DNA of 64,000 nucleotides from Bombella saccharophila (GTDB lineage Bacteria; Pseudomonadota; Alphaproteobacteria; Acetobacterales; Acetobacteraceae): assembly GCF_026385475.1 (NCBI RefSeq), contig NZ_JANIDW010000001.1, positions 1-64,000 on the forward strand, written 5' to 3'. The notes beneath the pieces were generated by a model. It worked only from the letters and a program-made list of their open reading frames with translations, was not told the DNA's origin and searched no databases. Every line of letters begins with the position of its first letter. Positions within the stretch are counted from its first letter, which is position 1. The position numbers and the translations under genes were made by a program. Shown here piece by piece: positions 45,718 through 54,031 of the stretch.

Positions 45718-47069
45718 TGTTTTCCAAGATTCTAATCGCCAATCGTGGCGAGATCGCGTTGCGTGTATTGCGTGCCTGTCGGGAGATGGGCATCAAGACG
45801 GTGGCGGTGCATTCCACAGCTGATGCCGATGCTATGCATGTTCGTTTGGCAGATGAGGCTGTCTGCATTGGGCCGCCGAGCTCTCGTGATTCCTACCTGA
45901 ATGTGGCGGCGATTCTTTCTGCAGCGACGATTACTGGGGCGGAGGCGATTCACCCCGGTTATGGCTTCCTCTCTGAGAATGCTGAGTTTGCGGAAACGGT
46001 GGAGGAGCATGGTATTGCCTTCATCGGTCCAACGGCTGAGCATATTCGCATGATGGGGGATAAAATCACCGCTAAGACCACGATGGAGGCTCTTGGTGTG
46101 CCGCTTGTGCCGGGGTCTGATGGGGCGTTGGCTAGCCTTGAGGAAGCGCGTGAGGTGGCTGAACGTGTGGGGTATCCTGTCCTCATCAAAGCTGCAGCAG
46201 GCGGTGGTGGCCGAGGGATGAAAGTTGCCCAAACGGCTGATGAGATTGAAGAAGCATGGAGTGTTGCCCGGACAGAAGCACGGGCCGCTTTTGGCAATGA
46301 TGAGGTTTATTTAGAGAAATATCTCGATAAGCCGCGTCATATTGAGCTTCAGATTATGGGTGATACGCACGGCAATGTTGTGCATTTTGGGGAGCGTGAT
46401 TGCTCCTTGCAGCGGCGTCACCAAAAATTGCTGGAAGAAGCAGGCTCGCCCGTCATTACACCAGAGCAACGTAATGAGATTGGTAAGACCGTTACCGATG
46501 CGCTCTCGCGTATGGGGTATCGCAATGCGGGGACGTTGGAGTTCCTTTATCAAGATGGGCAATTTTGCTTTATTGAGATGAATACCCGTCTGCAGGTGGA
46601 GCATCCTGTTACAGAGATGGTGTGTGATGTGGATTTGGTAAGAGAGCAAATCCGCGTTGCAGCGGGAGAAAAGCTCGGGTACCGGCAAGAGGACATTGTA
46701 ATGTCCGGCCATGCGATTGAATGTCGCATCAATGCTGAGGACCCGATGAGCTTTGTGCCGAATCCAGGTAAAGTGAAGGTCTTTCACGCGCCTGGTGGGT
46801 TAGGGGTACGCATGGATAGTGCTATCTTCTCCGGCTATAAGGTTCCGCCTTATTACGATAGCATGATTGCGAAATTGATCGTCCATGCCCCAACGCGGGA
46901 GCAAGCGATTGCCCGTATGAAGCGTGCTTTGACAGAGTGTGTTGTAGAAGGGGTGAAAACGGTCATTCCACTGCATCAGAAGATATTGGCGGACCCGGAG
47001 TTCCAAAAAGGGGATTATACTATCCACTGGCTGGAGAATTTTGTCGAGAAGATGCAGAATAACCACTAA
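45717..47069 (+). CDS. accC: Biotin carboxylase of acetyl-CoA carboxylase
   Basis: A 450-residue ATP-grasp enzyme that carboxylates biotin on AccB. The N-terminal N-R-G-E-I-A-L-R-V motif, the ATP loop [14 protein letters not shown] then [10 protein letters not shown] and the C-terminal R-I-N-A-E-D are all present. Length equals that of E. coli AccC within a few residues. It is translationally coupled to accB. A strong terminator follows at 47091-47124. Confidence 0.96.
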
Positions 47070-47090
47070 TTGTGCGGTGTATTATGTTGG

Positions 47091-47124
47091 AAAGGCCGTT
47101 CCTTTATGAGGGACGGCCTTTTTT
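47091..47124. terminator. Bidirectional terminator after accC
   Basis: AAAGGCCGTTCC, a seven-base loop and GGGACGGCCTTTTTT pair with one mismatch. It separates the convergent accC and the CcmA-CcmB gene. Confidence 0.85.
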
Positions 47125-47128
47125 ATGT

Positions 47129-48454
47129 CTAAGATTGAGCATCGCGTAAGCTTAACCCCGCGATAAAAGGGCAGAGGGGGACGCTGAGGAGGAAGAAAGC
47201 TGCCAAAAGGCTTAACGTGGCATGGTTGGCAGGTCCCGGTGGCATTGTGCAAGCTAACGTGCCGAAAATGAGGCTTGGGGCCATAAGCGGGAGGGTGAGG
47301 ATGGGTAGGAGAAGGCTGTTCTGCCGTGCCCCTAGGGTGATAGCCGCTGTCATGCCACCGAGGAAGGCTAAGGTGAGGCTGCCGAGGGTCATGCTGAGGA
47401 TAAGGCGGGGCAGGGATGAGAGCGAGAGCTGGAAGAAAAGGGCCATTATCGGTGTGATAAGCAGCAAGGGAAGGCTGCTGGTGACCCAATGGCTGATGAT
47501 TTTACCAAGGGCAATAAAAGCAGGGGCGAGGCGCATGCGTAAGAGGTCTAAAGAGCCATCTTCCGCATCGGCGTTATAAAGACGTTCCAGCGGTAAGAGG
47601 CTTGCGAGCAAGAGGCAGACCCATAAAATGCCCGGCCCAACCTGTTGGAGGCGCGCTGGGGCGGGGCCGAGTGCGAGCGCAAAGAGCATGCAGCATATGA
47701 TGAGAAAGCCCAGCCCAGCAATGCCGTCCCGCCGATGAGAGAGAGCCAGCCAGAACTCGCGGCGGAGATGGTGTAGAAAAGGATGAACGGGGTGTTTGGG
47801 CCTCTCATGAATATGTTGCGGCAGAGGTGGTGCAATATGAAGGCGGGAGGAGAGTGGGGTGGGTGTTATGCTGTGTGTTGCTGTACCGAGTGTGAGTATG
47901 TGGCTATGGGGGAGGAGAAGCGGATTATGTGAGGCAGCCATCACGCAGCCCCCTCGGGCGCGATGGGTGGCGATGATGGTGTTAAAGAGGGCGAGGCTTT
48001 GGGCATCCAGCCCATGAGTGGGTTCATCAAGGAGCCAAAGGGGCGCGTTAGTGAGTAAGAGTCGGGCGAGTCCCACCCGGCGTTTTTGCCCGTATGAAAG
48101 CAAACGTACCGGGCAGTTGAGCAAAGGGGTTAAGGCTAAGTGTGTGAGGGCCTCATGCAGGGCTGTTATTGTGTGGGGGGTAAAGAGGCGGAGATTTTGC
48201 TCTACAGTAAGGGTGGGTTTGAGGGCATTGTCCGTCCCTAGCCATGCGATATTGGCTGCGGCGGTGAGTGTCCCTTGTGTGGGTGGGCAAAGCCCAGCAA
48301 TCAGCCGTAGAAAGGAGGATTTACCAACGCCATTAGGCCCGATAAGGGTAAGGGCATCACCGGGGTATAGCTGACCAGAGAGGTCGTTGATGAGGCACCG
48401 CCCTGCACGGGTCAGTTGGATATGGTCTAATGATAAGAGGGGCGTAGGGTGCAT
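47129..48454 (-). CDS. ccmAB: Fused heme exporter CcmA-CcmB
   Basis: A 441-residue single chain that joins an ABC ATPase to a membrane permease. Residues 1 to about 210 match CcmA: Walker A G-P-N-G-V-G-K-S-S at 39-47, signature L-S-Y-G-Q-K-R-R, Walker B L-W-L-L-D-E-P-T. From about 225 the chain is a polytopic CcmB: H-H-L-R-R-E-F-W-L-A and several hydrophobic helices to the end. In most bacteria these are separate genes for heme delivery in cytochrome c maturation. The fusion is read directly; the heme role is from family knowledge. Confidence 0.85.
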   Translation of the reverse strand: MHPTPLLSLDHIQLTRAGRCLINDLSGQLYPGDALTLIGPNGVGKSSFLRLIAGLCPPTQGTLTAAANIAWLGTDNALKPTLTVEQNLRLFTPHTITALHEALTHLALTPLLNCPVRLLSYGQKRRVGLARLLLTNAPLWLLDEPTHGLDAQSLALFNTIIATHRARGGCVMAASHNPLLLPHSHILTLGTATHSITPTPLSSRLHIAPPLPQHIHERPKHPVHPFLHHLRREFWLALSHRRDGIAGLGFLIICCMLFALALGPAPARLQQVGPGILWVCLLLASLLPLERLYNADAEDGSLDLLRMRLAPAFIALGKIISHWVTSSLPLLLITPIMALFFQLSLSSLPRLILSMTLGSLTLAFLGGMTAAITLGARQNSLLLPILTLPLMAPSLIFGTLACTMPPGPANHATLSLLAAFFLLSVPLCPFIAGLSLRDAQS

Positions 48455-48579
48455 GAGGGTGTTTCATGTGGAGTGTGTACCCAGAGGGTAGGAAGAAAAT
48501 GATGCTGATTGATGAAAAATATAGGAAAGCCTGTTTTGCTGGAAGGGTTCTTATGGTTATGAAGGCACATGATGAATGA

Positions 48580-48606
48580 CTACAAGGTGGTAACGCCACA
48601 TTGTAG
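48580..48606. promoter_or_regulatory. Hairpin in the amino acid transporter leader
   Basis: CTACAA, one mismatch, GTGG, a five-base loop, CCAC, one mismatch and TTGTAG form a near-perfect repeat ending 34 bases before the GTG start. It may be an operator or leader structure. Nothing else is recognised in the 185-base spacer 48455-48639. Confidence 0.45.
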
Positions 48607-48639
48607 CGTGGGGAAGGATGTTCTGAACTGACTGATTGG

Positions 48640-49383
48640 GTGTTAAAGGCGAGTAATATCGTCAAATCCTTTAGCGGGAATGAGATTCTGCGGGGGATTT
48701 CGCTAGAGGTGGAGCGTGGGGAGTTGATTTCCATCATCGGGCCATCCGGTTGTGGAAAATCGACCTTTTTGCGATGCCTGAACTTTTTAGAACATCCTGA
48801 TGCGGGCGATGTGCAGGTGGAGAATGTGAAGCTTGCCAGCCATGGGGCATGGCGGCGGGCGGATGAGGCGCAGGCTCATCGGTTGCGGAGCCATGTGGGG
48901 ATGGTGTTTCAGTCCTTCAACTTATTCCCCCATCGTACGGTGTTGGAGAATGTTATGCTCGCACCGATGCAGGTGAAAGGATTAGAGGAAGGCAAGGCCC
49001 ATAAAATTGCTTGCGAGTTGTTGGAGAAGGTGGGTCTATCCGCTGTGAAGGGGCGGTATCCTGATCGTCTCTCTGGTGGGCAGCAGCAGCGTGCTGCCAT
49101 TGCGCGGGCTTTGGCTATGAAGCCTTCTGTCATGCTCTATGATGAGCCAACCTCTGCGTTGGACCCGGAACTCTCAGAGGAAGTGTTGTCGGTCATGCGG
49201 GCATTGGATGCAGAGGGAATGACCCAGCTTGTTGTAACGCATGATATGCGCTTTGCCCGTGCTGCCTCTGATAGGGTGTTATTTATGGAGGCTGGGCAGA
49301 TTGTTGAGAGTGGCGACCCGGATGTGATTTTCGCTAATCCGCGTGAGGCGGGGACGCGGCGTTTTCTGCGGACATTATTGTGA
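48640..49383 (+). CDS. Polar amino acid ABC transporter ATP-binding protein
   Basis: A 247-residue GlnQ/HisP-type ATPase, starting at GTG. Walker A G-P-S-G-C-G-K-S-T, Q-loop V-F-Q-S-F-N-L-F-P-H, signature L-S-G-G-Q-Q-Q-R and Walker B M-L-Y-D-E-P-T-S-A-L-D are all visible. It powers uptake of an amino acid with the fused binding protein-permease encoded next, whose in-frame GTG overlaps this stop. No good ribosome-binding sequence precedes the start, so an upstream codon is possible. Confidence 0.92.
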   Translation: MLKASNIVKSFSGNEILRGISLEVERGELISIIGPSGCGKSTFLRCLNFLEHPDAGDVQVENVKLASHGAWRRADEAQAHRLRSHVGMVFQSFNLFPHRTVLENVMLAPMQVKGLEEGKAHKIACELLEKVGLSAVKGRYPDRLSGGQQQRAAIARALAMKPSVMLYDEPTSALDPELSEEVLSVMRALDAEGMTQLVVTHDMRFARAASDRVLFMEAGQIVESGDPDVIFANPREAGTRRFLRTLL

Positions 49384-49403
49384 AGGATAAGGGCGTGGTG
49401 CGT

Positions 49404-50987
49404 ATGAAACGCGTCTTATTATGGGCAGCTGGCCTTATGCTATGGGCTGGGCTGCTTGGTGGTGGCTCTGTAGCGTGGGCAGATGGGGCAGCAGCAACGG
49501 CAGGGCAGCCATCTGTTGCAGGGCTGCATGTGCCGGGGGCACGTAATGAGCAGGACTTGCCTTGGGCCTCGGACGGGGAGGCGAATGTCCCTTACGTGTT
49601 CCACGACCCTGCGCATGAAGGGCGGATGACAGGGTTTGAATATGACCTGATGCAGGCTTTGGCCCCTCGGCTAGGCCGCCAGGGGCGGTTTGTGCAAAAT
49701 GGGTGGGATGGGCTTATTCCCGGCCTTGGGCGTGACCTTTATGCGTTGGTTATAGATGGGATTGAGATGACGCCGGAGCATAAGGAGGCGGTATTATTTT
49801 CACGCCCTTATTACGTGACGGTGGACCGGATTGTCCTGCGGAAGAATGAGACGGGGTTGGAGAGTGTGGCGGCCCTTAAAGGGCATGTTGTTGGCACAAT
49901 TAAGAGTACTGCGGCGGAGCGGTTATTGCTGGACCACGACCCGGCGAATGTGCGCTCTTATGATGAGGAGACTAATCTTTTCTCCGACCTGAAGAATGGG
50001 CGGCTTGATGCGATTTTAATTGATGAGCCAATTGCCCTTTATTATTGCTCTGATGATTTAAAGCTCGTAGGGCCGCCGATTGGCCGTGTGGCGTATGGGA
50101 TTGCGTTTGCCAAAGATAATCCCGGCTTGCGTGATGCTGTTGATGCCGCTTTAGGCACATTGATGAGCGATGGGACGTTGCATCAGATTCTCGCGCGTTG
50201 GAATCTGTGGACGCCACAAATGGCCGACTATACGGGGGACCATAGCGTCTCTTCCACCCAGCCAACGGCATGGACGGGGTATCGTCAGACGATGGAGCGT
50301 ATGTCTGGCAGTGGTCTCCAAGCGATGGTGCAGCGTTATAGCAGCTTCTTGCCCCTCATTGCGCGTGGGGCTTTGATGACGCTTGCCGTATCGGCCCTTG
50401 CGATGGTGTTAGCGGTCGCTTTTGGGTTGGTTTTGGCTCTAGCCCGTGCCTATGGTCTGGCCCCTTTGCGGTGGGTCGCGGGTGTGTATGTGGAGGTTGT
50501 GCGTGGCACGCCGCTTTTAATCCAAGTTTTATTTATCTTTTATGGCCTGCCTGCGTTTGGTGTGAAATTATCGCCCTTCGCGGCGGGTGTGTTGGCTTTG
50601 GGGCTGAATTACGCTGCGTATGAGGCAGAGAATTACCGTGCGGGCTTGCTCTCTGTGCCGCGTGGGCAGATGGAAGCGGCCATTGCGCTGAATATGACCC
50701 ATCGGCAAGCGTTGCGTTTGGTGATTGTTCCGCAGGCTTTTCGCACGGTTGTCCCGGTCATGACGAATGATTTTATCGCGCTCTTAAAGGATAGTTCGCT
50801 CGTCTCGGTCATTACTCTAACGGAGTTGAGCCAGACTTATATCCGGCTCTCCTCGACCTATTATGATTATATTGGGACGGGGCTTTTGGTCGCTTTAGCT
50901 TATTTGTTGGTAGGCCTGCCTTTTGTCCGCCTCGCCCGCATGGCGGAAAAGCGCATGGGGCGGGTGGTGTCTAAAGGGCATCATTAA
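49404..50987 (+). CDS. Fused substrate-binding protein and permease of an amino acid ABC transporter
   Basis: A 527-residue protein from ATG 49404 (AAGGG upstream; GTG 49380 is an alternative overlapping the previous stop). It has a signal sequence, a bacterial extracellular solute-binding domain family 3 (about residues 45-285, with F-E-Y-D-L-M-Q-A-L and G-T-I-K-S-T-A-A-E), and a C-terminal permease (about 310-520) with the E-V-V-R-G-T-P-L-L-I-Q motif and the loop G-Q-M-E-A-A-I-A-L. The fused binding domain would be tethered in the periplasm. It pairs with the upstream ATPase. Confidence 0.9.
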   Translation: MKRVLLWAAGLMLWAGLLGGGSVAWADGAAATAGQPSVAGLHVPGARNEQDLPWASDGEANVPYVFHDPAHEGRMTGFEYDLMQALAPRLGRQGRFVQNGWDGLIPGLGRDLYALVIDGIEMTPEHKEAVLFSRPYYVTVDRIVLRKNETGLESVAALKGHVVGTIKSTAAERLLLDHDPANVRSYDEETNLFSDLKNGRLDAILIDEPIALYYCSDDLKLVGPPIGRVAYGIAFAKDNPGLRDAVDAALGTLMSDGTLHQILARWNLWTPQMADYTGDHSVSSTQPTAWTGYRQTMERMSGSGLQAMVQRYSSFLPLIARGALMTLAVSALAMVLAVAFGLVLALARAYGLAPLRWVAGVYVEVVRGTPLLIQVLFIFYGLPAFGVKLSPFAAGVLALGLNYAAYEAENYRAGLLSVPRGQMEAAIALNMTHRQALRLVIVPQAFRTVVPVMTNDFIALLKDSSLVSVITLTELSQTYIRLSSTYYDYIGTGLLVALAYLLVGLPFVRLARMAEKRMGRVVSKGHH

Positions 50988-50995
50988 GTCGTGAG

Positions 50996-51934
50996 CTAGG
51001 GGGCTTCAGGGTCGTGGGGGATTATGTGCCCCTCTAGCTGGTTGTCAAAACCTAAGCGTAGGCTCTTTTGCCAGTCGAGGGCCCAATTACGCATTTTGGT
51101 GATGAAATCCCGCACAATAGTTGGTTGTGTTTGCGTGTCGTGTGCCCATGCTGGCAGGGGGGCGAGGAACTGATGCGTTTGCGGGTTAAGGGGGGGGATG
51201 AGAGTATCAATAAGGGCGATTTGGGCCTGCCCATTTGAGGTTACAGCGATATGACGCCACTGGACGGCGAGAAATAGAGGCGGGATGGGCGTGACCCCGA
51301 GGGCTTGTAGTCGGTTGATGGATTGATTGATGAGAGGATTCGTACTGACATCATCGCCTTGTAAGACAACAGTCCCCGCACCAATACAGTCCTCCCCAGC
51401 GGGGAGCAGGGGGAGACTATGGTTAAGGTAGTTGCGGTCATCGTGGCATACGTTAGTGGCTGCGAAGGTTTGGTCTAGAGGGATGGGCTGTTGTGTTGCC
51501 TGTGCAATAATGAGCCCCGTGATGGCCCCTTGTTGGGTGCGGACAAGGGCTAAGAAGGAAAAGGGAGAATCGTTGCTGATTTGCGCAGAGAGAATGGGGT
51601 GCCATTCTCCTTTAGGGAGAGGGATAGTATGCCCTGCCAAGGTGACGCGGTCGCGCACGATCTCTGCCATGCTAGGATATTGCATATGGATGGGCGGATG
51701 ATTTGTTGATTGGCTTTCTGCCTCGGTTGAATCATCATGGGCAGAGTTAGCTGCTTGTAGCGCGTTAGAGGTATGCGGAGGTAGGTGGCCTGGCAGCCAA
51801 GGGGCGTGTTTTTTAACCCAAGGGCTAGGGAAGAAGGCTGCCATGAGGATGCCACCAACCCCAAGGATAAAGCAGCATCGCCAAAGCGGTGCTTGCCGCC
51901 ACAATGCTATGAAGGCGTTTAATAATGTTTTCAC
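50996..51934 (-). CDS. Membrane-anchored protein of unknown function, partner of the AAA+ ATPase
   Basis: A 312-residue protein with one N-terminal membrane helix at about residues 18-36 (W-R-C-C-F-I-L-G-V-G-G) and the rest presumably periplasmic. A Ser/Asn/His-rich linker follows, then a domain with two cysteines (N-V-C-H and E-D-C-I), a mixed alpha/beta region L-A-V-Q-W-R-H-I-A-V, and a C-terminal helix. I do not recognise a family. Its start overlaps the AAA+ ATPase stop by four bases, so the two are translationally coupled. Downstream converging gene is the fused transporter. Confidence 0.7.
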   Translation of the reverse strand: MKTLLNAFIALWRQAPLWRCCFILGVGGILMAAFFPSPWVKKHAPWLPGHLPPHTSNALQAANSAHDDSTEAESQSTNHPPIHMQYPSMAEIVRDRVTLAGHTIPLPKGEWHPILSAQISNDSPFSFLALVRTQQGAITGLIIAQATQQPIPLDQTFAATNVCHDDRNYLNHSLPLLPAGEDCIGAGTVVLQGDDVSTNPLINQSINRLQALGVTPIPPLFLAVQWRHIAVTSNGQAQIALIDTLIPPLNPQTHQFLAPLPAWAHDTQTQPTIVRDFITKMRNWALDWQKSLRLGFDNQLEGHIIPHDPEAP

Positions 51935-53217
51935 AGGCTTGCCTTATGCATTTTTTCCTGCGGCTCTTCACTGGTTTCAGCACGAATTTGGCCCTCCTCT
52001 TCCATAATGAGGTGAACATGGGTCCGGCCTTGTTGACGAGCGGTAATGAGGCTGTCGCTGATCATATCTTCAATGGAGCGGAGGAGATCGCGCGCACTTG
52101 CCATGCTGCCGAGTTTTTGTTGTTTTTGCATAAGCTCAAATAAAAGGGCGGGGTCGATGCCGCCAGCTTCAACATTAAGCCCATAACCACGAATCATCTG
52201 CTCAATTTCGAGGGCGGCAACACGGGCGAGGTCTAGCCCACGTAAGGGACGGAAGACGAAAATACGGTCTAGTCGATTGAGGACCTCCGGTGCGAAGCCG
52301 GAGCGGCGCAGGGCCTCTGTGGATTCAGCGCGCATTCTTTCGGGGTCTTCGGCCCAACGTTCGGCGATGGTGCTGAGTTCATCAGTTGCGACATTGGAGG
52401 TGAGAACGAAGATAGCGCGTGTGGTTGGGACTAATTCATTGGTGGAGGCTTCCGTGACGTGTCCATCATTCCAAGCGGTAAGGAATTTTTTAAAGACGTC
52501 AGGGTGTGCTTTTTCTATTTCATCAAGGAGGACGACAGCATCAGGCTGTTCTTTAAGACCGCCTGTAAGGCGACCAAATGTGTCCGACCCCACATAGCCT
52601 TTGGGCGAACCAAAGAGTTGTGTTGCCGCATGAGGGCTGGACATTTGTGTCATATCGAAATGCAGAAGAGGTCGCTCTGTTTGGGTGGCGATTTGCTTGG
52701 CGAGATAGGTTTTCCCAGTGCCTGGGGGGCCAGCAAGTAGAAACACACCAACAGGGCGGTTGCGCGTGTGAAGGGCTAAGCGACGGCGGAGCTGCTGGGA
52801 AATATCTTCACATACCTGGTCTTGCCCGATAACGCGTGCGCGTAAAGAGGCGGCAAGCTCTTCGGCATTAATGGCACTTTCGCGTTGTTGGCGAGCCAGC
52901 ATATCTTCAAGGGCTGTGCGGTTGGTCAAACGGCTGAGAACATCCATGAGGAAAGTCTTTCTATGGCGGAGGCCGTGGCGGGCCAGATGTTCAGAGGAGA
53001 GATAATAGAGCATCCCGGCAAAAGAGAGGGCAAGCCCGATTATTCCGATAGGCAGATAGCCCGGGCGTGCCCAGTTTATAGCAATTAAGAGGTCATGTAA
53101 CAAAGCGCCTGGGGAGAGATGGACCATCAGCGCAAGTTGGACGGCAGCGAGAATAAGGAAGGCTGCCATCATGAGCGGCATCATTCGGGATAGCCAGGGG
53201 ATTAGGGATTTCATCAT
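51931..53217 (-). CDS. Membrane-anchored single-ring Clp-type AAA+ ATPase
   Basis: A 428-residue protein with two N-terminal membrane helices (about 12-34 and 53-75) and a cytoplasmic AAA+ module like the D2 ring of ClpB/ClpA. Walker A G-P-P-G-T-G-K-T is at 163-170, the pore loop G-Y-V-G at 207-210, Walker B V-V-L-L-D-E-I-E-K-A-H at 228-238 and sensor-1 T-S-N at 273-275. A ClpB-D2-like small lid follows. The aromatic pore loop implies threading of protein substrates; the membrane anchor and two membrane partners suggest an envelope role. No ClpP gene is nearby. I do not recognise the specific family. Confidence 0.88.
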   Translation of the reverse strand: MMKSLIPWLSRMMPLMMAAFLILAAVQLALMVHLSPGALLHDLLIAINWARPGYLPIGIIGLALSFAGMLYYLSSEHLARHGLRHRKTFLMDVLSRLTNRTALEDMLARQQRESAINAEELAASLRARVIGQDQVCEDISQQLRRRLALHTRNRPVGVFLLAGPPGTGKTYLAKQIATQTERPLLHFDMTQMSSPHAATQLFGSPKGYVGSDTFGRLTGGLKEQPDAVVLLDEIEKAHPDVFKKFLTAWNDGHVTEASTNELVPTTRAIFVLTSNVATDELSTIAERWAEDPERMRAESTEALRRSGFAPEVLNRLDRIFVFRPLRGLDLARVAALEIEQMIRGYGLNVEAGGIDPALLFELMQKQQKLGSMASARDLLRSIEDMISDSLITARQQGRTHVHLIMEEEGQIRAETSEEPQEKMHKASL

Positions 53218-53353
53218 AGGTGGCTGCTATCTCGGACAGATGGTGTGAGAGGTATTGTTGTAAAGACTATACAATAGGTTGTTTTCGCTACCAGCGTGGG
53301 ATGGGGTCAAGCCCTTTAATGATGACAGGCAGGTCATTTTAACAGATGCCTAA

Positions 53354-54031
53354 CTATTGCACGATGACTGGTACGGATAATGCAGGGGCCTGAGGCGTAA
53401 GAGGCGGTAAGACAACAACAGAATGGAACATATTCAGCGTTGCAATGGAGAGTGGTCCCATTTGTGCGGGGCTTTGGCGTGTCAAGGTGATGACCCCTTG
53501 TTGTGAGATGGGGAGGAGTACAGTGCGCGGGCGAGGCCCTAAAATGACGTGTTGTGTAAAGCCTGCGGTGCTGACGGTGAGGCTTTGCCCTGTTTGTTGG
53601 TTAGCATCAACCAAAGGTAAGGCTGCGAGGCGTATGCGGTTATCCTTTAGGGCAGCGAGTAAAGCAGGTTTTTGGTTGTTAGGGATCGTGCTGCTTGCAA
53701 GAGCATTTTCAGCTTCATGAGGGGGGAGCATGGACAGAACGAGTGCCCCTTGCGTGATGGGGATTGTTTGTTGGATCACACGCGGCTGCGGGGGCGTTGA
53801 TGGCGCTGGGGGATGAGCATTAAAAGCAAGAACAGCTCCCCCCAGGCCCGCGACTGCTGCTGCAAGGGCAGCAGGCCGCCAAAGAGGAGATTTTTTAGGC
53901 TCTGGTGTTGGGGAGGGGGATTGTGGCTCCATCATGTAACCATGTCGCATTATTTGGGGCTGCACTACAAGATGTTGATGAGGATGATGGTTTTTGTTGT
54001 CATGATACCTTGTGAGAAAAGCTTGCATCAC
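53354..54031 (-). CDS. Small membrane protein upstream of the AAA+ locus
   Basis: A protein of up to 225 residues. An alternative ATG at 53935 gives about 193 residues and is plausible, because the first 32 are His/Asn/Gln-rich and look non-coding. One membrane helix lies near residues 50-70 ([17 protein letters not shown]); the rest is presumably periplasmic with a beta-rich domain ([14 protein letters not shown]). A Pro-rich linker precedes it. It lies 136 bases upstream of the AAA+ gene on the same strand. The spacer 53218-53353 shows no clear promoter to me. Confidence 0.65.

Follow-up and report, generated by a model that had tools for sequence, protein, structure and literature searches.

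Motors that are held at a membrane and pull on proteins are few, and they have been studied mainly as proteases. Torsin with LAP1/LULL1 is an HSP100-related single ring with membrane partners, which resides in the ER lumen and carries no threading pore loop. In acetic acid bacteria, much of the chemistry is periplasmic. Human CLPB/SKD3 is a mitochondrial single-ring disaggregase that acts in an envelope compartment and has ankyrin repeats (PMC9934407). We have analysed a 64-kb window, i.e., the whole stretch of DNA under study, of Bombella saccharophila NZ_JANIDW010000001.1, where three genes named C, A and B are annotated in this order, all on the minus strand:

53354-53935, minus strand: gene C, 193 aa from the ATG at 53935 (start Met of the relatives)
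51931-53217, minus strand: gene A, membrane-anchored single-ring Clp/HSP100 D2-type AAA+ ATPase, 428 aa, ATG start (ORF list)
50996-51934, minus strand: gene B, 312 aa, GTG start (ORF list)
51931-51934, minus strand: overlap of 4 bases between the A stop and the B start (ORF coordinates)

The three ORFs and the four-base overlap of A and B were found where a preliminary description, made from the sequence, had placed them, and its third single-span protein, encoded upstream in the same direction, is present as C with one hydropathy peak. The open frame of C extends to 54031 and would yield 225 aa if read from a GTG (ORF list), and the start at 53935 is more likely, since the relatives align from the ATG at this position. 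Among the ORFs overlapping 48.5-56.5 kb, the flanking genes are, by sequence inspection, those of an amino-acid ABC transporter at one end and of RimP/NusA at the other; within this span, the remark that no ClpP, secretion or sheath genes are nearby holds true.

The features of A are as follows:

53116-53184, minus strand: membrane helix 1, residues 12-34 (hydropathy, alignment)
52993-53064, minus strand: membrane helix 2, residues 52-75 (hydropathy, alignment)
52708-52731, minus strand: Walker A, GPPGTGKT, residues 163-170
52588-52602, minus strand: pore loop, KGYVG, residues 206-210
52519-52536, minus strand: Walker B, VVLLDE, residues 228-233
52393-52404, minus strand: sensor 1, LTSN, residues 272-275
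52264-52281, minus strand: arginine-finger region, LNRLDR, residues 313-318

A matches Pfam AAA_2 with an E-value of 5.9e-35. Of the NCBIfam models ClpB fits best (169 bits), but the match covers only positions 535-840 of its 853, that is, the second ring. In a sequence search of the PDB chains, ClpE, ClpC and ClpB came out best, with up to 166 bits. All the marks of the HSP100/Clp D2 group are found, namely the Clp-type AAA+ domain, Walker A and B, GYVG, sensor 1 and the arginine finger. Overall, this confirms the earlier assignment of A as a single-ring ClpB-D2-type AAA+ protein with two N-terminal membrane helices and intact Walker motifs and pore loop. Since a basic stretch follows membrane helix 2, the ATPase domain should lie inside, in the cytoplasm, according to the positive-inside rule. 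All 158 A sequences lack the ClpP-binding loop IG[FL] at its expected place, and the ClpA-like protein of the same genome has it; because of the missing loop, A is probably not coupled to ClpP.

Several well-studied systems have been compared with A and set aside, and no specialised family cut-off was reached among the matches listed. The ClpB disaggregase, with its N-domain, two rings and middle domain, does not agree with 428 aa and a score of 169 bits, where the cut-off is 1232, and ClpA/ClpC/ClpX as unfoldases of ClpP do not agree with the lack of IG[FL]. For ClpV/TssH of type VI secretion the score is 141.5 bits against the TssH equivalog cut-off of 884.95, for an FtsH-type membrane protease it is 21 bits against an equivalog cut-off of 600, and for Torsin 24.7 bits against a Pfam gathering score of 27. 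The zinc peptidase domain that follows the AAA+ domain in FtsH has no counterpart here: no peptidase family appears among the best 25 of 38 Pfam and the best 25 of 58 NCBIfam matches, and the alignment shows that A ends with the small AAA+ domain. CLPB/SKD3 was rejected as well, as ankyrin repeats would find no space with the hairpin at residues 12-75 and the ClpB match beginning at residue 92, and none is among the best 25 of 38 Pfam matches. The candidate anti-phage defence models of PADLOC that match A, e.g., PDC-M37B at 3.4e-24, do so over the AAA+ domain only.

B has an N-terminal LWxxAxxWR motif, a membrane helix (hydropathy peak at residues 15-40) and an outer domain:

51878-51904, minus strand: juxtamembrane motif, LWRQAPLWR, residues 11-19 (invariant alignment columns)
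51047-51691, minus strand: outer domain, residues 82-296 (structure model of high confidence, mean pLDDT 86.9)

The LWxxAxxWR pattern is retained in B of 156 of the 157 loci tested. The best structural match of the outer domain is Mog1 (Z 8.1, rmsd 4.9 over 154 residues, ~10% identity), and LpqN is matched with Z 5.5; LpqN and PsbP have the Mog1/PsbP-like fold in common. We tentatively assign this fold to the modelled domain, with the Mog1 Z lying near the level that the tool regards as a common arrangement. A weak likeness to the C-terminal domain of RseB was also seen (Z 5.5 over 90 residues), and Foldseek gave no match for the domain at E <= 0.001. GntR-family effector domains and RseB were dropped as relatives because they are weak structural matches, and DUF1795, EagR and DcrB, considered as relatives too, are not among the structure matches listed. 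At sequence level, searches of Pfam, NCBIfam, PHROG and PADLOC gave no meaningful match for B, and its profile matches no PDB sequence. Four remote relatives of the B domain were tested; one carries DUF2061 above cut-off, and no family covers the shared domain in any of the four.

C consists of a short proline-rich tail, which we infer to be cytoplasmic, one membrane helix (residues 52-73 in the 225-aa numbering) and a C-terminal beta-sandwich domain. Its structure model has a mean pLDDT of 79.8, with the domain mostly above 90, and the structural matches, with a best Z of 5.7, are scattered among unrelated beta-sandwich proteins. Family matches of C are all sub-threshold (NF038083, 14.2 bits against 100; PHROG, E 0.14), and no PADLOC model is matched. 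The idea of a membrane-held motor with two outward-facing partners thus fits the hydropathy and the structure models, while the topology itself is what we infer from them.

As for distribution, all 80 named loci of acetic acid bacteria keep the order C-A-B (C by profile), so that the three genes are co-conserved; in one of them (L034) B is split into two frames. A 4-base overlap links C to A at 10 of 14 listed loci, and links A to B in the window's genus. Since the operon is conserved across genera, the arrangement is not due to chance. Of the 298 Acetobacteraceae genomes sampled, 72 contain A and 70 match the C profile, five of the C matches being weak and in genomes without A. In the class sample (385 genomes), A was seen besides the window's own genome only in G088, also of Acetobacteraceae, and neither the class nor the phylum sample holds a relative beyond this family. 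Identity to the window proteins is 66-91% for A, but just 23-70% for B and C.

In all 24 nearer genomes with A, no more than a few kilobases separate C-A-B from nusA, whereas G088, G103, G118 and G124, the four distant genomes examined for this, have nusA elsewhere. At eleven more distant loci, C-A-B is constant and the neighbours, by a heuristic gene call, are mostly different, although two pairs have some neighbours in common and a generic ABC-ATPase cluster recurs. By inspection, no functional hint comes from the neighbours, which look housekeeping at the acetic-acid-bacterial loci and mostly differ at the distant ones. A mobile or defence origin was rejected as the main reading on the grounds of the nusA linkage in nearer genomes and of the plasmid, phage and viral searches. 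The best 10 of 2,216 plasmid records found with A are one Microvirga protein and nine Azospirillum ClpB, and B is absent from 72,556 plasmid records. None of the 148 phage records covers 80% of A, and viral contigs gave one Clp-like match at 36% and none by profile. The Microvirga protein is an AAA family ATPase homologous to A on plasmid pMVF16-3 of Microvirga sp. VF16, with no B or C adjacent. In the open-access literature as far as it could be searched, Gluconobacter papers included, we found no mention of the locus, and screen hits given as tags only would escape such a search; to this extent, and with B and C outside known families, the envelope system can still be called undescribed.

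A second kind of locus has also been observed. Seven of the 76 genomes surveyed have an A that has lost both the catalytic motifs and the pore loop (dead A hereafter); in all seven, C is absent genome-wide (E up to 1) and B is kept in a single frame with LWxxAxxWR intact. A motif-bearing A together with a C match is found in 68 of the 76, and one more is truncated at a contig edge. The NusA tree gives about five conversions to dead A and rejects a single origin (p-AU 8e-42), and the B and A trees give four, with a single origin likewise rejected. This suggests about five, and at least three, independent conversions. The reading frames of dead A cover nearly the whole profile without a stop, while about seven stops are expected from neutral simulation. 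For the pair G189/G231, dN/dS is 0.05 for A and 0.06 for B, i.e., this dead A is under strong purifying selection; the ratio is measurable for this pair only, as dS is saturated or undefined in the others, where A and B evolve fast. The preliminary description is partly supported; that some lineages, as represented by these seven genomes, can dispense with threading was not anticipated in it.

The paired-change test of C loss against dead A yields p 0.125 from four well-supported pairs, and when the broken C of G133 is scored as lost, three pairs are in favour with one tie. Since the independent pairs are too few, the coupling of C and catalysis is statistically unproven. We have also considered whether C is always lost first and rejected it: G133, with C frameshifted and A whole, agrees, while G157 (C whole, A hairpin in another frame, B in three pieces) and G196 (C in one frame, A split over two) disagree. 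The order of loss forms no part of the mechanism proposed here.

Our best explanation, to which we assign a probability of about 0.4, is that C-A-B is an inner-membrane remodelling machine, in which the pulling is tied to C and A-B has a further role independent of ATP. At about the same probability, threading serves C, and the system has repeatedly been converted, with the loss of C, into a conserved ATP-independent A-B scaffold of pseudo-AAA+ type. A would assemble into one Clp-type ring at the cytoplasmic side of the membrane, anchored by its two-helix hairpin. B would be its standing partner, whose LWxxAxxWR motif and membrane helix may dock on A and whose outer domain would act in the periplasm. 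C may be the purpose of the ATP-driven pulling, either as the client itself or as an adaptor that presents a client, and its proline-rich tail could plausibly be what the pore loops grip. A would then draw C out of the membrane or through it, along with anything that C holds on the outer side. Where C is gone, ATPase and pore loop have decayed, possibly as a consequence, and A-B may persist as an ATP-independent membrane pair. The lone Microvirga plasmid ATPase is counted against this explanation.

The same parts could also belong to a general envelope quality-control dislocase, in which A extracts damaged inner-membrane proteins, B and C are periplasmic sensors or adaptors, and other proteases carry out the degradation. 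In its favour are the single HSP100 ring with its membrane hairpin and missing ClpP loop, the two partners that both seem to face outward, and the weak likeness of B to a domain of RseB, an envelope-stress sensor. We hold it to be somewhat unlikely, however, because a general task would hardly be expected of a system that only some members of a single family possess, because B and C evolve fast, and because the ATPase motifs were repeatedly lost while A-B was retained. A dedicated export system, with A pushing substrate outward, would share the threading ring, the hairpin and the outward-facing partners, and HSP101 of Plasmodium, which threads outward, is a precedent. But no extra gene cluster accompanies C-A-B at the distant loci, no candidate cargo was found, and the specialised ClpV secretion model is far below its cut-off for A, so that export is highly improbable; the earlier suggestion of secretion gained no support from any finding.

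The dead forms bear on the remaining readings. In a Torsin-like system, C (or B) would trans-activate A, the complex would remodel another envelope structure, and catalysis would decay without C. The joint absence of catalytic motifs and C agrees with this, and so does the weak Torsin similarity of A, though its score is under the cut-off; moreover, A possesses an arginine finger of its own besides an intact pore loop and is cytoplasmic by charge, and no AAA-type structure is prominent for B or C among the matches listed, which leaves this reading improbable. Alternatively, the dead forms may be decaying remnants in shrinking genomes and uninformative on mechanism, which would be compatible with other readings. 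As all dead cases fall in one clade of small genomes on the NusA tree (1.9-2.4 Mb), general reduction could have removed C and catalysis without a mechanistic link; a genome near this clade (G098) gives no match to A at E 1e-55, and frames are broken for B in G301, G314 and G157 and for A in G157 and G196. On the other hand, the stop-free frames, the low dN/dS of the G189/G231 pair and the unbroken B in all seven genomes speak against mere decay, and we place this possibility on the unlikely side.

C-A-B deserves attention in that acetic acid bacteria retain a motor without the ClpP loop whose two partners belong to no known family. As catalysis and C have repeatedly disappeared together, these genomes provide a ready-made way of finding out for which partner the ATP cycle works and what an AAA+ ring can still do once dead; if the conversion to an ATP-independent scaffold is true, it would be a natural separation of motor from scaffold function in an AAA+ protein. 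The system should be directly testable in laboratory strains of Gluconobacter oxydans, for which a transposon knockout collection is available (PMC8602642).

Among known systems, A is closest to the D2 ring of ClpB, Hsp104, ClpC and ClpE, with ClpB, ClpE and ClpC as its best sequence matches. Both Walker motifs, the pore loop, sensor 1 and the arginine finger are common features; A differs in having one ring with no N-domain or first ring, an N-terminal membrane hairpin and two dedicated membrane partners. Human CLPB/SKD3 has a related D2-type ring by sequence, but A carries the hairpin in place of ankyrin repeats, and SKD3 has no B or C. Like FtsH/YME1L, A would be an AAA+ ring held at the membrane, yet it belongs to the Clp branch and ends with the small AAA+ domain. 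With Torsin, its sequence score is sub-threshold. The Microvirga plasmid ATPase shares 48.7% identity over A residues 90-407, intact Walker motifs and, by inspection, an N-terminal hydrophobic hairpin, whereas it stands apart from A with its pore loop PGYSG and without the two partners that accompany A in acetic acid bacteria.

The window belongs to an Acetobacteraceae genome of 1.9 Mb, in which it lies on contig 1. Its C-A-B unit consists of three minus-strand genes, flanked by an amino-acid ABC transporter and by rimP-nusA (neighbours named by inspection):

50996-51934 (-): B, 312 aa, putative membrane partner of A
51931-53217 (-): A, 428 aa, membrane-anchored Clp/HSP100 D2-type AAA+ ATPase, predicted single ring
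53354-53935 (-): C, 193 aa, putative membrane partner of A

The limits proposed in the preliminary description are correct except for the start of C: the end of this gene stands, while the start at 54031 is less likely than 53935, since relatives begin there. An identical A is found in the named record of Parasaccharibacter apium AS1, and Bombella species are next nearest.

A is a Clp/HSP100 second-ring (D2) AAA+ domain preceded by two hydrophobic helices (from hydropathy), and belongs to a known branch of the superfamily. The ClpB profile matches it over the second ring only, and the PDB chains matched are ClpE, ClpC and ClpB, with scores up to 166 bits. In an alignment of 15 members the mean column identity is 80%, and GPPGTGKT, the pore-loop GYVG, LLDEIEKAHPD, LTSN and LNRLDR are invariant. 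The ClpP-binding IG[FL] loop is absent from all 158 A sequences checked (157 loci and the window) and present in a ClpA-like protein of the window's own genome. Judging from charge, the ATPase domain probably faces the cytoplasm.

B carries an LWxxAxxWR motif, a single membrane helix and then an outer domain; the motif is retained in 156 of 157 loci, some genomes being counted twice among them. The AlphaFold2 model of the outer domain (mean pLDDT 86.9) has Mog1 entries as its closest structural relatives (Z 8.1, rmsd 4.9, 154 residues), which tentatively suggests a Mog1/PsbP-like fold. C is composed of a short proline-rich tail, one helix and, in the structure model, a beta-sandwich domain for which a structure search gave no clear match. 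Neither B nor C hit a named family in family searches, nor did B in a PDB sequence search. The outer domain of B (..LPLP.G.W) reappears in other Acetobacteraceae proteins at loci L130-L138 and L142, several with exported-looking N-termini, and adjacent copies occur in L133, L135, L136, L138 and L142. None of these loci yielded an A, and the proteins form a larger unnamed family. We have also observed that B is broken close to its C-terminus, with the pieces in two reading frames, in L159 (G301, the window's species) and in L034 (P. apium AS1), whereas the window's B is whole; split B occurs in G314 (L208) and G157 (L155) as well.

The three genes travel together. Among the 80 named acetic-acid-bacterial loci kept out of 125 relatives found, A and B are adjacent in all 80 (in L034 with B split over two frames), and C is present in 77 by pairwise search and in 80 by profile, so that the co-conservation asked of the proposed system is borne out. 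Identity to the window is 66–91% for A in relatives, the identical one aside, 25–70% for B and 23–65% for C. In sampled family genomes, A was found in 72 of 298 (E 1e-55), B in 83 of 299 (E 0.01) and C in 70 of 298 (E 0.01; five of the 70 weak and without A), and B is present in all 72 genomes carrying A. nusA lies within a few kilobases of the unit in all 24 nearer genomes with A, and not near it in four distant ones (G088, G103, G118 and G124); at eleven distant loci the neighbours are mostly different and C-A-B is still together. Across 385 genomes of the class, A matched, beyond the window's own genome, only in G088 of the same family, and the Microvirga homologue described next, used as query (E 1e-50), matched only the window's own genome among 299 of the phylum. 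A lone A homologue with a similar membrane hairpin, a single 412-aa ATPase, is encoded on one plasmid, pMVF16-3 of Microvirga sp. VF16 (L242:11752-12990), amid mostly hypothetical genes and transposases.

The survey covered 76 different genomes; together with the 80 named loci and one duplicate this makes 157 loci. In 68 of them A has its catalytic motifs and C is matched at the locus; in one, G238, the motifs are present and the contig ends at the expected position of C. In the other seven, the A frame covers almost the whole profile and is followed by B, the catalytic motifs are lost, and C is missing.

Motif regions of dead A, i.e., A without catalytic motifs and pore loop
G009 (the window's genus): GPPSTGKT/LLNG, pore-loop GYVG absent
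G189, G231: GPAGNGKK/VLED/NTPTG
G148: GPKGTGKK/LLNE
G167: GPTGTGKN/IIKE
G093: GPAGTGKK/VIQN
G102: GPAHTGKG/LLDG

Searched genome-wide at E up to 1, none of the seven gave a C profile match, and the same search matched C in G000, G062 and G133. In G009 (L143) the called A frame and a rimP-like frame are ~164 bases apart, so C appears to have been removed rather than to have decayed. Several of the 68 are atypical: G080 has KGFVG in place of KGYVG and was scored intact, Y to F being taken as conservative; the C match of G233 is partial and divergent; G133 has C over two frames with A intact; G157 (L155) and G196 (L153) have A over two frames with C in one. In G157 the hairpin of A is in another frame. 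That is, the order of loss varies, G133 looking as if C went first and G157 and G196 otherwise.

The dead state has arisen repeatedly. In the NusA tree of 30 genomes it needs five changes, and the starred branches force five.

INDEPENDENCE

G167 enters this tree with 301 residues only; its nusA (G167:C1:370147-371669) runs over two overlapping frames, through a sequencing error or a real frameshift. Placing the seven dead genomes in one group is rejected (p-AU 8e-42). On the trees of B and of A the count is four changes, three of them forced, and a single dead clade is again rejected (p-AU 5e-82 and 2e-4, respectively). Because these two trees have long branches, we put the independent conversions at at least three, and probably five. 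Both states occur within three genera: the window's, that of G062/G148, and that of G133/G189/G231. A paired test goes in the expected direction in all four well-supported pairs (p 0.125, significance being out of reach), or in three with one tie if the broken C of G133 is scored as lost.

In one pair the dead forms appear to be kept. For the dead pair G189 and G231, dN/dS is 0.05 for A (dS 0.29) and 0.06 for B (dS 0.20), revealing purifying selection on both; in live pairs A shows 0.02–0.04 in six of seven, and 0.19 in G078/G157. For the other dead lineages the evidence consists of open frames, since dS is saturated: the six dead A frames tested, themselves picked from open frames, have no stop across almost the whole profile, against ~7 in a simple neutral simulation. 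On the other hand, A and B have changed fast in G009 and other dead lineages, which counts against retention; between G009 and the window, A is 48% and NusA 96% identical. Around this locus, 5,143 bases past the B end of the operon (window 45849-50988) are 98.25% identical to G009, and the match breaks off shortly before the stop codon of B. Identity is only 84.8% on the nusA side, and A-B has diverged much further. The pattern suggests recombination with a boundary at the operon, or else that G009 has an older allele of A-B.

The simplest reading that fits is that ATP-driven pulling by A would serve C, and that the A-B core would have another task, independent of ATP. C may be the client or an adaptor presenting the client, the two fitting equally well. 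What the sequences show directly is the anatomy, the conservation of the three genes together, the missing C wherever catalysis is lost and, for one dead pair, purifying selection; for such a C-A-B machine we infer the ring, the topology, the contacts, the client and the direction. A rival explanation is that C activates the ATPase A. General quality control is possible as well, but fits poorly with so narrow a distribution, and for secretion, which the preliminary description had also suggested, we found no supporting evidence.

That description had put the system forward as a candidate undescribed one, and the open-access literature found, including passages of PMC8602642, PMC12041372 and PMC11302035, yielded no account of C-A-B. 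Compared with the Clp systems tested, C-A-B fails a defining feature of each. Overall, the superfamily branch of A is known, and a hairpin-anchored single D2 ring together with B and C appears to be new.
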